A stretch of 64,000 bases of DNA from contig NZ_CP113866.1 of the NCBI RefSeq assembly GCF_026914305.1, forward strand, positions 461,501 through 525,500. The letters run 5' to 3'. The stretch is from Caldicellulosiruptor acetigenus (GTDB taxonomy: Bacteria > Bacillota > Thermoanaerobacteria > Caldicellulosiruptorales > Caldicellulosiruptoraceae). The translations under genes were made by a program, and so were the position numbers. A model generated the notes under the pieces. It was not told the origin of the DNA. It ran no database searches and saw nothing but the letters and a program-made list of their open reading frames with translations. Of the stretch, positions 49,280-57,619 are shown one piece after another (positions within the stretch are counted from its first letter, which is position 1; every line of letters starts with the position of its first letter).

Positions 49280-50752
49280 TAACCCCATTGCCGTTTTCAA
49301 AATCTTATCATAATCCATCTCCTTTTTAGAAAACTCATGGACTGCCTTGCCTCTGTGGAGTACCAGGATTCTGTCACACATGCCAATCAGTTCTGAAAAG
49401 TCAGAGGAAATGAAAATAATGGCACAACCAATTCTTGCAAGCTCATTGATGATATTATAAACCTCTACCTTTGATGCCAAATCCAAGCCCTTTGTGGGCT
49501 CATCCAAGATAAACACATTCGAACGTGAAAAGAGCCATTTTGCAATCAATACCTTTTGCTGGTTCCCACCACTTAAGAACGCAATCTTTTGAGTAATCTC
49601 CTTTGGCTTTATCCCAAGCTTTTTTATATAAAGATTTGCAATCTTTTCCTGACGGGATGAGTCTACAAAAAAGCCGTTTGCAATGTTCCAGATGTTAGAT
49701 GAGATGATGTTGTCTGCGATGTTGAGGGTTTTGAAAAGGCCTGTACCAATTCTGTCTTCGCTCATAAACGCAATACCATTTTTTATGGCATCGGCTGGGC
49801 TTGAAAGTTTCAAAAGAGTTCCATTCATATAAATCTCACCTGAGTCAAGCTTTTCTGCACCAAAAAGAGCCTTTGCCAGAAAACTTCGCCCAGACCCAAC
49901 AAGCCCTGCAATCCCAAAAACCTCTCCCTCTCTTACATCAAATGAAATGTCCTCGATAATTCCACGTTTTGTTAAATTTTTAACGCTAAAGATGGTAGAG
50001 CCTTTTTCAACCTTTAGTTTTGGATATGTCCTGTTTACACTGCCAAAGATCAAAGAGATTACCCTGCTTAAGTTAAAGCTTGTAACGCTATCAGATGCAA
50101 CAACCTCACCATCACGAAGGATTGTTACCCTGTCTGCAATAGATAGCGCCTCTTCCACCATATTTGTTACAAATATTATCACAATTCCTTTTTCTTTCAG
50201 CTCTTTTATGATTTTAAAAAGCTTTTCTATCTCATATGTTGTAAGCCCTGCTGTTGGCTCATCAAAAATCAAAACCTTTGCGTTTTGAACAAGCGCTCTG
50301 CAGATCTCAATCACCTGAAGCTGAGATAGCCCCAGGTTTTTGCAAAGCGCTTCAGGGTTTATATATACGCCCATTTTGCTTAAAATTTCTGATGCCTGTT
50401 TTATCATCGCCTTGTGGCTTATAAATCCAAACTTGTTTTTTGGCTTGTTGTCAATAAAGATGTTCTCAGCAACAGAAAGGTGAGGAAAGTACAAAAGCTC
50501 CTGATGCACGGTAAATATTCCAAGCGATTTTGCAAGCATAGGATTGAGACTTGAAAATTCCTTACCGTCAATCAAGACCTTTCCGCTGGTTGGCGCTGTG
50601 CTTCCATTTATAATCTTTGTCAGGGTTGTTTTGCCAGAGCCGTTTTTGCCAAGGATGACATTCACCTGACCTTCAAAAAATTCAAGGTTTATATCTTTTA
50701 AGGCATAAAAATCATCAAATTTTTTTGAGATGTTTTTCAGCAAAATAGCCAT
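49277..50752 (-). CDS. sugar ABC transporter ATP-binding protein with two ATPase domains (RbsA-like)
   Basis: About 491 residues in two tandem ABC domains, as in RbsA/MglA/XylG. The first has Walker A GKNGSGKTTL and LIFDEPTAGL, the second GLVGSGRSFL, LSGGNQQKVLIAKWL and FILDEPTKGLDLASK. The second Walker A (Gly-rich GSGRS) is degenerate, as usual in this group. It follows the DeoR regulator gene directly, but there are no permease or binding-protein genes on this strand, so it is an orphan or spare ATPase for the divergent CUT2 system. A frame from TTG 50761 exists; AGAGGGG suits ATG 50752. Confidence 0.85.
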   Translation of the reverse strand: MAILLKNISKKFDDFYALKDINLEFFEGQVNVILGKNGSGKTTLTKIINGSTAPTSGKVLIDGKEFSSLNPMLAKSLGIFTVHQELLYFPHLSVAENIFIDNKPKNKFGFISHKAMIKQASEILSKMGVYINPEALCKNLGLSQLQVIEICRALVQNAKVLIFDEPTAGLTTYEIEKLFKIIKELKEKGIVIIFVTNMVEEALSIADRVTILRDGEVVASDSVTSFNLSRVISLIFGSVNRTYPKLKVEKGSTIFSVKNLTKRGIIEDISFDVREGEVFGIAGLVGSGRSFLAKALFGAEKLDSGEIYMNGTLLKLSSPADAIKNGIAFMSEDRIGTGLFKTLNIADNIISSNIWNIANGFFVDSSRQEKIANLYIKKLGIKPKEITQKIAFLSGGNQQKVLIAKWLFSRSNVFILDEPTKGLDLASKVEVYNIINELARIGCAIIFISSDFSELIGMCDRILVLHRGKAVHEFSKKEMDYDKILKTAMGL

Positions 50753-54456: not shown

Positions 54457-55494
54457 ATGAAGAAGAATTTCTACAAGTATCTTTCAATCTTTCTGGCGGT
54501 TGCGCTGATTGTGTCTTTGGCTTATGCGCTTGTTCCAAGTTCAAAGGATGTCACACAGGCAAGCAGTGGCAATCCAAAGCTCAAAGGAAGTCCAAATGAA
54601 GAGTATTACATGGTAACCTTTGTGTCTGGTATTGAGTACTGGAAAGGCTGCTTCAAGGGAATGAAGGCAGCAGCAGATCTGTACGGTGTAAAGGCTATCT
54701 ACACAGGTGCACCACAATTTGATGTTAACCAGGAAGTTACAGTACTTCGCCAGGTTATTGCTAAAAAACCCGCAGGAATCTTGGTAACATGTGCAAACCC
54801 TGATGCTCTGAAAGCTCCAATTGATGAGGCAATCAAGAAAGGAATTCCTGTTATAACATTTGACGCAGATTCGCCAAAGTCAAGCAGATATTCTGTTTTG
54901 GAGACAGGAAACTATAACGCAGGTGCAATGGCTGCAAGATATCTTGGCAAGCTTTTGGGCGGCAAAGGCGAGGTTGGTATCTCAACAGTTGCTGCACAGC
55001 TCAACCATGAGCAAAGAAAACAAGGGTTTATTGATACTCTCAAAAAAGAGTTCCCAGGAATTAAGGTTGTTGCAATTGTAAATGATGAAAATGACCAGAC
55101 AAAAGCTGCAAGACAGATTTCTGCTATGCTCCAAGCTCATCCCAACATCAAAGGAATATTCTGCACAGACGCTCTTGGTGGTGTTGGTGCTGCAACAGCT
55201 ATCAAGGAGGCTAATAAAGTTGGCAAGATTAAGATAGTAAGCTTTGACACTGACAAGGGAACACTTGACCTTATCAAACAGGGAATCATTGATGCGTCGA
55301 TTGCACAGGGTACATGGAACATGGGATTCTGGGGCATGACATTCCTGTTCTACTTAAAACATGGCATTGTTAACCCGGTTGACAATTGGCAGAAATATGG
55401 CATTAATCCACTCCCACCATATGTCGATACAGGTACAATGGTTGTAACAAAACAGAATGTGGATGCATTTTATAAGGTTAATGTGATTAAGTAA
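54457..55494 (+). CDS. sugar ABC transporter substrate-binding protein, CUT2 type (RbsB-like)
   Basis: A 345-residue exported periplasmic-binding protein: signal peptide (MKKNFYKYLSIFLAVALIV, cleavage probably near residue 27-35), then a type-1 fold with the sugar-pocket segments IPVITFDADSP, EVGISTVAAQLNHEQR, IFCTDALGGVGA and IVSFDTDKGTLDLI. No lipobox Cys is seen. GGAGGAGG precedes ATG 54457. It is the last gene of the CUT2 operon and ends with a terminator. Part of its last 13 codons recurs, mutated, at 56408-56446. Ligand unknown. Confidence 0.93.
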   Translation: MKKNFYKYLSIFLAVALIVSLAYALVPSSKDVTQASSGNPKLKGSPNEEYYMVTFVSGIEYWKGCFKGMKAAADLYGVKAIYTGAPQFDVNQEVTVLRQVIAKKPAGILVTCANPDALKAPIDEAIKKGIPVITFDADSPKSSRYSVLETGNYNAGAMAARYLGKLLGGKGEVGISTVAAQLNHEQRKQGFIDTLKKEFPGIKVVAIVNDENDQTKAARQISAMLQAHPNIKGIFCTDALGGVGAATAIKEANKVGKIKIVSFDTDKGTLDLIKQGIIDASIAQGTWNMGFWGMTFLFYLKHGIVNPVDNWQKYGINPLPPYVDTGTMVVTKQNVDAFYKVNVIK

Positions 55495-55513
55495 GTGAAT
55501 TAAAATGCTTCTT

Positions 55514-55552
55514 AAAGAGCCTCTTGGCCTTTTGGGCAAAGGGGCTCTTTTT
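55514..55552 (+). terminator. terminator of the CUT2 operon
   Basis: AAAGAGCC-type arm (55514-55528) pairs with GGGGCTCTTT (about 55541-55550), then TTT. Confidence 0.8.
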
Positions 55553-55646
55553 GTAATAGGTTAAGATTGTATAAAAGTTAATGATGTTATCTTGCAATAA
55601 AAAGAGTTATAATAAAAATGAGTAAGAAAGATGGTGGTGAAAAGAA

Positions 55647-55865
55647 GTGAGTAATTTGTTAAAAAACAGGTTGAAAGAAGTTATTGATAATCTTAGTGAA
55701 GACGAGCTTACAGAAGTTGTTAATTTTATAGAGTATTTGAAATTTAAAGATGAAAAAGAAGAAAACGAAATCCTTAATGATGTAGAATTAATGGAATCAA
55801 TTAAAAGAGGTCTTAAAGATTTAGAAAACGGTGATGTATACGATTTTGAGGATGTGTATAAATAA
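55647..55865 (+). CDS. small antitoxin-like protein (DUF2281-like)
   Basis: A 72-residue helical acidic protein: LKNRLKEVIDNLSEDELTEVV, a FIEYLKFKDE segment and a tail ending FEDVYK. The helical N-terminus with E-L-T-E-V-V-N-F-I-E-Y-L-K resembles antitoxin families such as DUF2281. It starts with GTG 55647, with GGTGGTG upstream. Its last codons (GATGTGTATAAATAA) match the end of the RelE toxin gene at 57230, which is where the 236-base repeat begins, so it has been joined to a copy of the RelE-linked antitoxin. Confidence 0.6.
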   Translation: MSNLLKNRLKEVIDNLSEDELTEVVNFIEYLKFKDEKEENEILNDVELMESIKRGLKDLENGDVYDFEDVYK

Positions 55866-56086
55866 GAAATCCCCGAGATGAGCTTTATTCACTGATTGAC
55901 AAGCTAACAACTGAAGATGTGATTAGCCTTTTACACATAATAAAGAGGATAGTCACTTCAGATGAAGAACTAACAGATGAAGAAATTCAACAAATAGAAT
56001 TGGCAAAAGATGAGATTGCTAAAGGGGAAGGAATAGAAATAGAGGAAGTTAAGAAAATATTGAAGCTAAATTCGCAATAAAATCCA
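55851..56086 (+). repeat. 236-base direct repeat, copy 1
   Basis: This stretch is nearly identical to 57230-57465, at a constant offset of 1379 bases and without gaps; I counted four substitutions by eye. It includes the tail of the upstream gene and all of the following antitoxin frame. Confidence 0.88.
55862..56080 (+). pseudogene. copy of the RelE-linked antitoxin without a start codon
   Basis: The frame is the same as the antitoxin at 57241-57459 (RNPRDELYSLIDKLTTEDV and so on), but its ATG has become ATA (base 55864), and no other in-frame start with a ribosome-binding site is seen. It also lacks its toxin. It is probably not translated. Confidence 0.8.
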
Positions 56087-56198
56087 TCAAAGACAAACTG
56101 TAATATGTCAAGGGAATAATTGAAAAATATTTTGATCTGGGTGGATAATGAAAATAGCAGAGTTAAGTTAAAAAGTGTCATCAAAGAGAGGGATTGTG

Positions 56199-56375
56199 AT
56201 GGAGTTGGCAAGGAGAATTTTAGAGGATATAGTAAACTTACCCGAAGAACTGCAAAAAGAGGTATTGGAGTTTATTGAACTCAAAAAAAAAGAGAGGGAA
56301 AAAGAGATTGAAAGATTAATGGATGAAATTATTGACAAGTATAAAAAAGCTTTTGAGGAGCTTGCAAAGAAATGA
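56199..56375 (+). CDS. small helical antitoxin-like protein
   Basis: About 58 residues, MELARRILEDIVNLPEELQK, then EVLEFIELKKKEREKEIERL and a basic coiled tail. The N-terminal pattern (NLPEELQKEVLEFIE) is common in small DUF2281-type antitoxins. GAGAGGG precedes ATG 56199; the longer frame from 56175 is less likely. Its stop overlaps (ATGA) a short broken frame that starts like a partner toxin gene. Confidence 0.55.
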   Translation: MELARRILEDIVNLPEELQKEVLEFIELKKKEREKEIERLMDEIIDKYKKAFEELAKK

Positions 56376-56446
56376 ATATGCTATCTTGGTCTGAAATTTT
56401 GAAACTAAATGTGGATGTGCTTTATAAGGTCAATGTGATAAAGTAA
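56372..56446 (+). pseudogene. fusion of a truncated partner gene to the tail of a sugar-binding protein
   Basis: ATG 56372 overlaps the antitoxin stop and opens a 24-codon frame: MNMLSWSEILKL, then NVDVLYKVNVIK. The second part repeats the end of the CUT2 binding protein (NVDAFYKVNVIK at 55456-55494; 34 of 39 bases identical), in frame, with its stop. It looks as if the start of a toxin-like gene was joined to a duplicated 3' end of the binding-protein gene. It is followed by a terminator, as the original is. Confidence 0.7.
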
Positions 56447-56467
56447 AGCAAAGAAGTTAAAAAGCTC

Positions 56468-56507
56468 AAAGAGCCATTTCACCTTCTTGGTGAAGTGACT
56501 CTTTTTC
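56468..56507 (+). terminator. terminator behind the fusion remnant
   Basis: AAAGAGCCATTTCACC (56468-56483) pairs with GGTGAAGTGACTCTTT (56489-56504) with two mismatches, then TT. It resembles the CUT2 operon terminator in position and in its AAAGAGCC arm. Confidence 0.7.
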
Positions 56508-56600
56508 TATAGCAAAAATACTTAGGTTTGTGGTATAATTATCAATAAGAAAATTGAAAGAGGATAAAAAATAAGATAAGGGACTCTACTAAGAGAAAAG

Positions 56601-56831
56601 ATGGACTGTGTTTTGTGTAAATCACAATTAATTCATGGAGAGGTAAACCATATTGTTGATACTGAATCTCAGATTGTCATTATCAAAAATGTTCCAGCTA
56701 TGATATGTCATCAATGTGGAGAATATTACCTTGACAATGAAACAGCTATAAAAATAGAAAAGTTAGTTGATGAACTTCTCAAAAACAAGACAGAAATAAC
56801 TATTGCAAACTACACAGAAATTGCTGCTTAA
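56601..56831 (+). CDS. YgiT-type zinc-finger protein (MqsA-like antitoxin domain)
   Basis: A 76-residue protein with two CxxC pairs (MDCVLCKSQL and MICHQCGEYYL) that form the YgiT/MqsA N-terminal zinc ribbon, then a helix (AIKIEKLVDELLKNK). Full MqsA antitoxins carry a helix-turn-helix behind this; here it is absent, as in stand-alone YgiT proteins that pair with DUF4258-type toxins. No toxin partner is seen on either side, so it may be an orphan. Confidence 0.78.
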   Translation: MDCVLCKSQLIHGEVNHIVDTESQIVIIKNVPAMICHQCGEYYLDNETAIKIEKLVDELLKNKTEITIANYTEIAA

Positions 56832-56998
56832 TTACCATACTGGTTTCACACGTTTTTCCGATGTAGGAAATGCATTTGCACCTATTTAGAAAGTCACCTC
56901 TTGTTAATTTTAATGGAAATAGCTTTATTTTTGTGATATAATAAAATTACGCAAAAAACAATTTACATTATAAAAAAGTTATTTGGAGTCAAAAATAG

Positions 56999-57244
56999 AT
57001 GAAGATTATTTTTTCTAAGCAAGCTCTCAAATTTTTAAGCCTCCAAGATGCTAAAACAGCTAAAAGAATAATTGATGCGATTGAAAATAATTTGAGTGAG
57101 AAGCCTTTCAAGGGAGATATTAAAGTTTTAAAGGGACGTGAAGAGTTAAGGCTACGTGTAGGGAATATAAGAGTAATATTTACGGTTAAAGGTAATGAAG
57201 TACATATTTTGACAATCGGATATAGAGGAGATGTATATAAATGA
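56999..57244 (+). CDS. RelE/ParE family toxin
   Basis: An 81-residue toxin-type protein with the RelE/ParE fold: MKIIFSKQALKFLSLQDAKT, the basic middle (FKGDIKVLKGREELRLRVGN) and the C-terminal strand IRVIFTVKGNEVHILTIGYR. RelE-type toxins cleave mRNA at the ribosome; ParE-type toxins poison gyrase, and sequence alone does not decide here. GGAGTC before ATG 56999 is a fair ribosome-binding site. Its stop overlaps the antitoxin start (ATGA), the toxin-first order found in many relE/higB pairs. Confidence 0.85.
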   Translation: MKIIFSKQALKFLSLQDAKTAKRIIDAIENNLSEKPFKGDIKVLKGREELRLRVGNIRVIFTVKGNEVHILTIGYRGDVYK

Positions 57245-57465
57245 GAAATCCCCGAGATGAACTTTATTCACTGATTGACAAGCTAACAACTGAAGATGTG
57301 ATTAGCCTTTTGCACATAATAAAGAGGATAGTCACTTCAGATGAAGAACTAACAGATGAAGAAATTCAACAAATAGAATTGGCAAAAGATGAGATTGCTA
57401 AAGGGGAAGGAATAGAAATAGAGGAAGTTAAGAAAATATTGAAGCTAAATTCGCAATAAAATCCA
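57230..57465 (+). repeat. 236-base direct repeat, copy 2
   Basis: Matches 55851-56086 without gaps and with about four substitutions. This copy is the intact one. Confidence 0.88.
57241..57459 (+). CDS. antitoxin of the RelE-type pair
   Basis: A 72-residue acidic protein, MRNPRDELYSLIDKLTTEDV, then ISLLHIIKRIVTSDEELTDE and a helical tail ending LKLNSQ. No clear DNA-binding domain is seen. The ATG overlaps the toxin stop by four bases, so translation is coupled. The same gene, without a start codon, lies 1379 bases upstream. Confidence 0.75.
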   Translation: MRNPRDELYSLIDKLTTEDVISLLHIIKRIVTSDEELTDEEIQQIELAKDEIAKGEGIEIEEVKKILKLNSQ

Positions 57466-57530
57466 ATACCCATATTGATTTATCTTTCAAAAACTCATAT
57501 AATTAATATAGAAGGAAAAAAGTAAATATC

Positions 57531-57619
57531 AGGGCGATGGAGTTCGCCTTAAATGCCACAGGGAATACCCTGGATGGCTGATAACTCCTGTCCGTATAAG
57601 TGCGGGCAGGAGTTTTTTG
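57531..57619 (+). ncRNA. fluoride riboswitch (crcB motif) with terminator
   Basis: The aptamer sequence GGGCGATGGAGTTCGCC (57532-57548), AAATGCC, a hairpin, and GGCTGATAACTCCTG (57576-57590) match the crcB motif almost base for base (usually GGCGATGGAGTTCGCC... GGCTGATGACTCCT). Its 3' part pairs into a terminator: AACTCCTG (57583-57590) with CAGGAGTT (57607-57614), then TTTT. Fluoride binding is expected to prevent the terminator and allow transcription of the genes behind. The longest frame of the next gene runs through this RNA and should be disregarded there. Confidence 0.9.

Follow-up and report, generated by a model that had tools for sequence, protein, structure and literature searches.

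The final 13 codons of a CUT2-type sugar-binding protein gene occur twice in the window (i.e. the whole stretch of 64,000 nucleotides from Caldicellulosiruptor acetigenus analysed here): once at their native place and again, followed by a similar terminator, ~950 bp downstream of the native gene end. There they continue, in frame, a short coding segment that most likely is the start of a doc-type (Doc/Fic) toxin gene. The arrangement is best explained, with a probability that we put at roughly one half, by ectopic copying of the gene end and its terminator onto the doc-type gene. The repeated gene end is real and old, but looks like an ordinary and minor genome rearrangement and not like a new mobile element. 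The features on which the argument turns are the following.

54457-55494, + strand: CUT2-type sugar-binding protein gene, from which the copied end derives (Peripla_BP_4, 9.4e-64)
55456-55494, + strand: copy A, the native 3′ end of the binding-protein gene (34/39 identity to copy B)
55514-55550, + strand: terminator A (hairpin of -23.8 kcal/mol, z -3.8, then a T run)
56175-56375, + strand: antitoxin 3, the probable doc partner (TIGR02609 doc_partner 0.0012 and VapB 6.4e-5, both below cutoff)
56372-56446, + strand: 24-codon fusion ORF, its first ~13 codons doc-like toxin (a relation inferred from relatives), then the in-frame binding-protein gene end; ATGA overlap with antitoxin 3
56402-56510 (right edge approximate), + strand: copied segment B, binding-protein gene end and terminator
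56468-56504, + strand: terminator B (hairpin of -19.4 kcal/mol, z -4.65)

The initial annotation had reported the repeated gene end at 56408-56446, and both its coordinates and its count of 34 identical bases out of 39 are exact. The copied codons include the stop, and each of the two copies is in frame and terminated by TAA. The best other site for the 39-base end in the 64-kb window reaches 25/39, and the chance maxima in 40 order-2 Markov simulations of 64 kb each were 23-27/39; chance similarity can thus be rejected, 34/39 standing against a best simulated value of 27/39. A second ORF end with a 30/39 match, at 50288, proved to be an antisense stop codon opposite a stretch common to ABC-ATPase genes, which we take to be the Walker B region, and represents no similar event.

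The homology of copy B has its left edge at 56402, upstream of which the identity between A and B, taken in 6-base steps, is 1/6 in four of the first five steps and 0/6 in the other; past the terminator, no similarity between A and B is evident. Since the homology runs from 56402 on through the terminator, the copied segment measures about 108 bp (56402 to ~56510), more than had been stated at first, with a right edge that is blurred by divergence. A whole-genome search with 55440-55560 as the query missed copy B, though three other comparisons show it.

Relatives were compared in a genus sample of 12 genomes, the own genome (G000) and G001-G011. The binding protein is 95-100% identical in eight of them (G000, G001, G002, G004, G006, G008, G009 and G010), in all of which the last 25 codons of its gene encode an identical protein sequence, and the loci of these eight were scanned for gene ends, either end being counted at 27/39 or more. 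Two ends are present in G000 and G002 only, a single one in the remaining six, and a search of 31 genomes for the copy with its flanks gave a full or nearly full match in these same two genomes only. The second copy of G002 sits behind antitoxin 3, at the orthologous position, within a 408-bp stretch 90% identical to 56183-56590; the binding-protein genes of the two genomes are 91% identical. As both carry copy B at orthologous positions, the duplication arose before G000 and G002 diverged.

The terminator behind copy B, also part of the initial claim, aligns with native terminator A at a score of 24.5, whereas 23 other terminator-like sites across the window reach 13.5 at most. Against the native end regions of the other genomes, terminator B scores 22.5 in G010, 22 in G002, 19 in G001 and 18 in G008; values are low in G006 (13.5, i.e. 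no better than the best unrelated site of the window), G009 (6) and G004 (4), and in the last two the native end region differs from that of the window. The terminator B hairpin of G002 (-18.9 kcal/mol, z -4.72) shows that the structure is retained in both genomes despite sequence change, and terminator B may be under maintenance, as far as two sequences can tell. A promoter-like motif 3′ of copy B (56529-56559) has matches in many genomes; as its 12 exact occurrences in the own genome precede unrelated genes, it seems to be an ordinary strong promoter.

The 24-codon ORF starts at 56372, in an ATGA overlap with the antitoxin 3 stop codon that is conserved in G002; its head, as far as the first copied codons, is MNMLSWSEILKLN. 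Antitoxin 3 has homologues at G001:6058, G009:1585288 and G001:2079482 (39-47% identical), and directly 3′ of the first two lie Doc genes with an overlap of the same kind, that behind G009:1585288 being intact (DOC_P1 2.7e-13, Fic 1.2e-16) and that behind G001:6058 broken by stops. It is because relatives of antitoxin 3 precede Doc genes in this manner that the 13-codon head is taken as a doc start. The head by itself is not long enough for its sequence to prove doc identity, and no intact close relative of this doc gene was found when sought via antitoxin 3 in 37 genomes of the class, so that it is position and partner, and not sequence, that point to a doc toxin. The region of the Fic/Doc motif is absent from the ORF, which ends after 24 codons. 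A further relative of antitoxin 3, at G000:C1:6053-6229 (L090), stands without a Doc partner next to a presumably gyrA-like gene; in G001 the Doc gene is broken.

That the fusion ORF encodes a functional small protein is highly improbable. The reading frame, the ATGA overlap and the position of the stop are retained in G000 and G002, which speaks for a functional product, but the differences between the two genomes over the 25 codons (stop included) are mostly amino-acid-changing, with five changing and two silent codons, one of the latter being the stop. By comparison, the differences in the native gene end comprise four silent codons and not one changing codon, those in the whole binding-protein gene 86 silent and four changing ones. 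The antitoxin 3 gene upstream is, moreover, interrupted by an internal stop in G002. From this pattern of substitutions, the fusion peptide appears to carry no sign of maintenance.

The surroundings are a decaying toxin-antitoxin islet, in which toxins have been lost and antitoxins retained. Besides antitoxin 3, it contains the following genes.

55647-55865, + strand: antitoxin-like gene 1 (weakly DUF2281/VapB-like; PF10047 6e-5, below the curated cutoff), toxin missing
55851-56086, + strand: start-less copy of antitoxin 2 (98% identical to 57230-57465)
56601-56831, + strand: YgiT/MqsA-type antitoxin (TIGR03831 5e-12)
56999-57244, + strand: RelE/ParE-type toxin with intact reading frame (ParE_toxin 4.6e-9)
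57241-57459, + strand: antitoxin 2 with start codon, overlapping the toxin stop; no family match above cutoff

The RelE/ParE-type toxin, overlapped by the small gene at 57241, forms with it a predicted pair, the one intact pair of the islet; antitoxin 1, the start-less antitoxin 2 (which lacks its RelE partner), antitoxin 3 and the YgiT antitoxin, whose DUF4258 partner is present in G002, all stand without a partner. The start-less antitoxin that had been noticed between the two gene ends is borne out, its ATG having become ATA. Its first bases fall within the final codons of antitoxin 1, which are similar to those that close the RelE gene, both genes ending in DVYK. The start-less gene belongs to a 236-bp repeat (55851-56086 and 57230-57465, 98% identical) that was absent from the initial annotation and is much younger than the copied gene end (34/39). 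A joint duplication of the RelE-antitoxin cassette and the binding-protein end was considered and rejected on the grounds of age (98% versus 84% identity), and G002 has the gene-end copy without a duplicated cassette. The cassette itself (56898-57468) is 91-93% identical to G006:C1:1053187-1053759 and G004:C1:1160547-1161129; such matches at another genomic place in two congeners indicate that it has moved, with no obvious mobility gene. Further 3′, a fluoride riboswitch (57524-57597, 48.3 bits) precedes genes for a DUF6062 protein and a dynamin-like protein; a gene for a fluoride exporter was not noticed immediately after the riboswitch.

The region 3′ of the binding-protein gene is different in each of the eight genomes. 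G002 has no counterpart of 55646-56182 and 56889-57455, and a DUF4258 gene precedes its YgiT antitoxin. Orthologues of antitoxin 1 directly follow the binding-protein gene in G006 and G010, with a broken one in G008 and no second copy of the gene end in any of the three; the G006 islet comprises antitoxin 1, a remnant of a RelE end and a broken YgiT gene, and in G010 a stretch of ~6.7 kb that includes a second sugar operon intervenes. G008 and G001 carry an HD-domain gene with a DarG-like partner, families that were assigned from the homologues in G006, where (L038 3939-5794) an HD-domain (dGTPase-like) gene is accompanied by a small gene whose match is to the end of DarG. The two genes, which adjoin the same riboswitch gene, are possibly a defence or toxin-antitoxin pair.

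Direct repeats flanking a toxin-antitoxin block that varies between species would be expected if 55557-56401 were the body of a small mobile element and the repeats its attachment site or a long target duplication, and the initial annotation had offered a reading of this kind. It is highly improbable, being unsupported by a recombinase, a matching empty site or further copies. Between the copies, no recombinase or transposase was found among the annotated ORFs, which convincingly match only antitoxin-type families or none. Six of the eight genomes have a single repeat, yet G006 and G010, which have no second end, contradict the reading, since the content of the supposed element, antitoxin 1, still comes after their native end (as it does, broken, in G008). 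G002 has both ends and a different, shorter content. Identity between the repeats is 84%, and the joint of the repeat falls within a toxin-like reading frame, and among the 31 genomes the repeat with its flanks has no full match at other places than the G000/G002 locus.

It is very unlikely that the second end was acquired horizontally, together with the toxin-antitoxin genes, from another organism with a related binding-protein gene. The sugar-binding gene apparently moves between genera, as Caldicoprobacter algeriensis (L123), which is outside the genus, has a binding protein 91% identical; but copy B matches the ends found in the genus at 33-35/39, as expected for a copy from within. Among 19 related loci, moreover, the end of C. 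algeriensis is the only one close to copy A (33/39), and none of the 19 has a doubled end at 27/39 or more. The 39-45 bp of copy B are insufficient for placement in a tree.

A tentative, more serious contender is the duplication of the binding-protein gene, or of a larger stretch, followed by a single deletion from about codon 13 of the doc gene to the last ~15 codons of the duplicate. The terminator that closes the copy has the layout of the native one, which is also what a full duplicate would show, deletions bounded by short matches are frequent in this islet, and the same operon has decayed in this way in G003, where, near C1 2188400 (L043), the transporter operon is reduced to ATPase fragments and a terminator resembling that of the binding-protein gene. 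The deleted second gene, which the initial annotation had also proposed, accordingly survives as a rival history; but its gene body is absent from the locus, where the last ~15 codons alone are present, no complete or longer second copy exists in any of 21 genomes, relatives at this locus included (the next best homologue being 31% identical), and nothing upstream of the binding-protein gene has a nearby duplicate.

A short templated copy and a full duplication with deletion leave the same footprint. Ectopic templated copying is slightly preferred because the gene body, or a second full gene, is untraced in relatives and because the copy shows a boundary at either end. These edges and the inclusion of the terminator are consistent with it, and the other toxin losses of the islet (that of the DUF4258 partner and that of the RelE gene paired with the start-less copy) provide a supporting context. 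During repair or replication, template switching or ectopic gene conversion involving two gene ends close to each other would have copied the gene end and its terminator onto the toxin gene, cutting it at about codon 13 and removing its remainder. The toxin would thereby have been killed, and the antitoxin gene would have gained a stop codon and a working terminator downstream; later, the islet would have kept decaying, with toxins lost and antitoxins left behind.

The locus provides a clear and dated example of the decay of a chromosomal toxin-antitoxin islet, in which antitoxins and terminators are retained and gene ends serve as joints, and cautions that direct repeats of gene ends around small genes are not necessarily the mark of a mobile element. 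Whether gene-end capture, the copying of an adjacent gene's end with its stop codon and terminator onto a toxin gene, is a repeated route by which such islets are disarmed, the toxin being killed and the antitoxin provided with a clean transcript end, is doubtful and rather unlikely. If it were so, a second gene-end capture would lie at 55851, the joint at which antitoxin 1 ends and passes into the repeat whose other instance stands behind the similar last codons of the RelE gene.

Three known kinds of system bear comparison with this one. As in Phd-Doc and Fic-Doc modules, the relatives have an antitoxin followed by a doc ORF in ATGA overlap, but the locus of the window retains just ~13 toxin codons. 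Degenerate chromosomal toxin-antitoxin loci with orphan antitoxins, reportedly encountered in a survey of E. coli, share with it the partnerless antitoxins and the variable contents at one site; the difference is that here the end of a neighbouring metabolic gene replaces one toxin end. Finally, partial duplications of the 3′ ends of genes, which arise by illegitimate recombination or template switching, likewise join a short, sharp-edged segment to an unrelated gene, whereas here the segment ends in a complete terminator and truncates a toxin-like gene.
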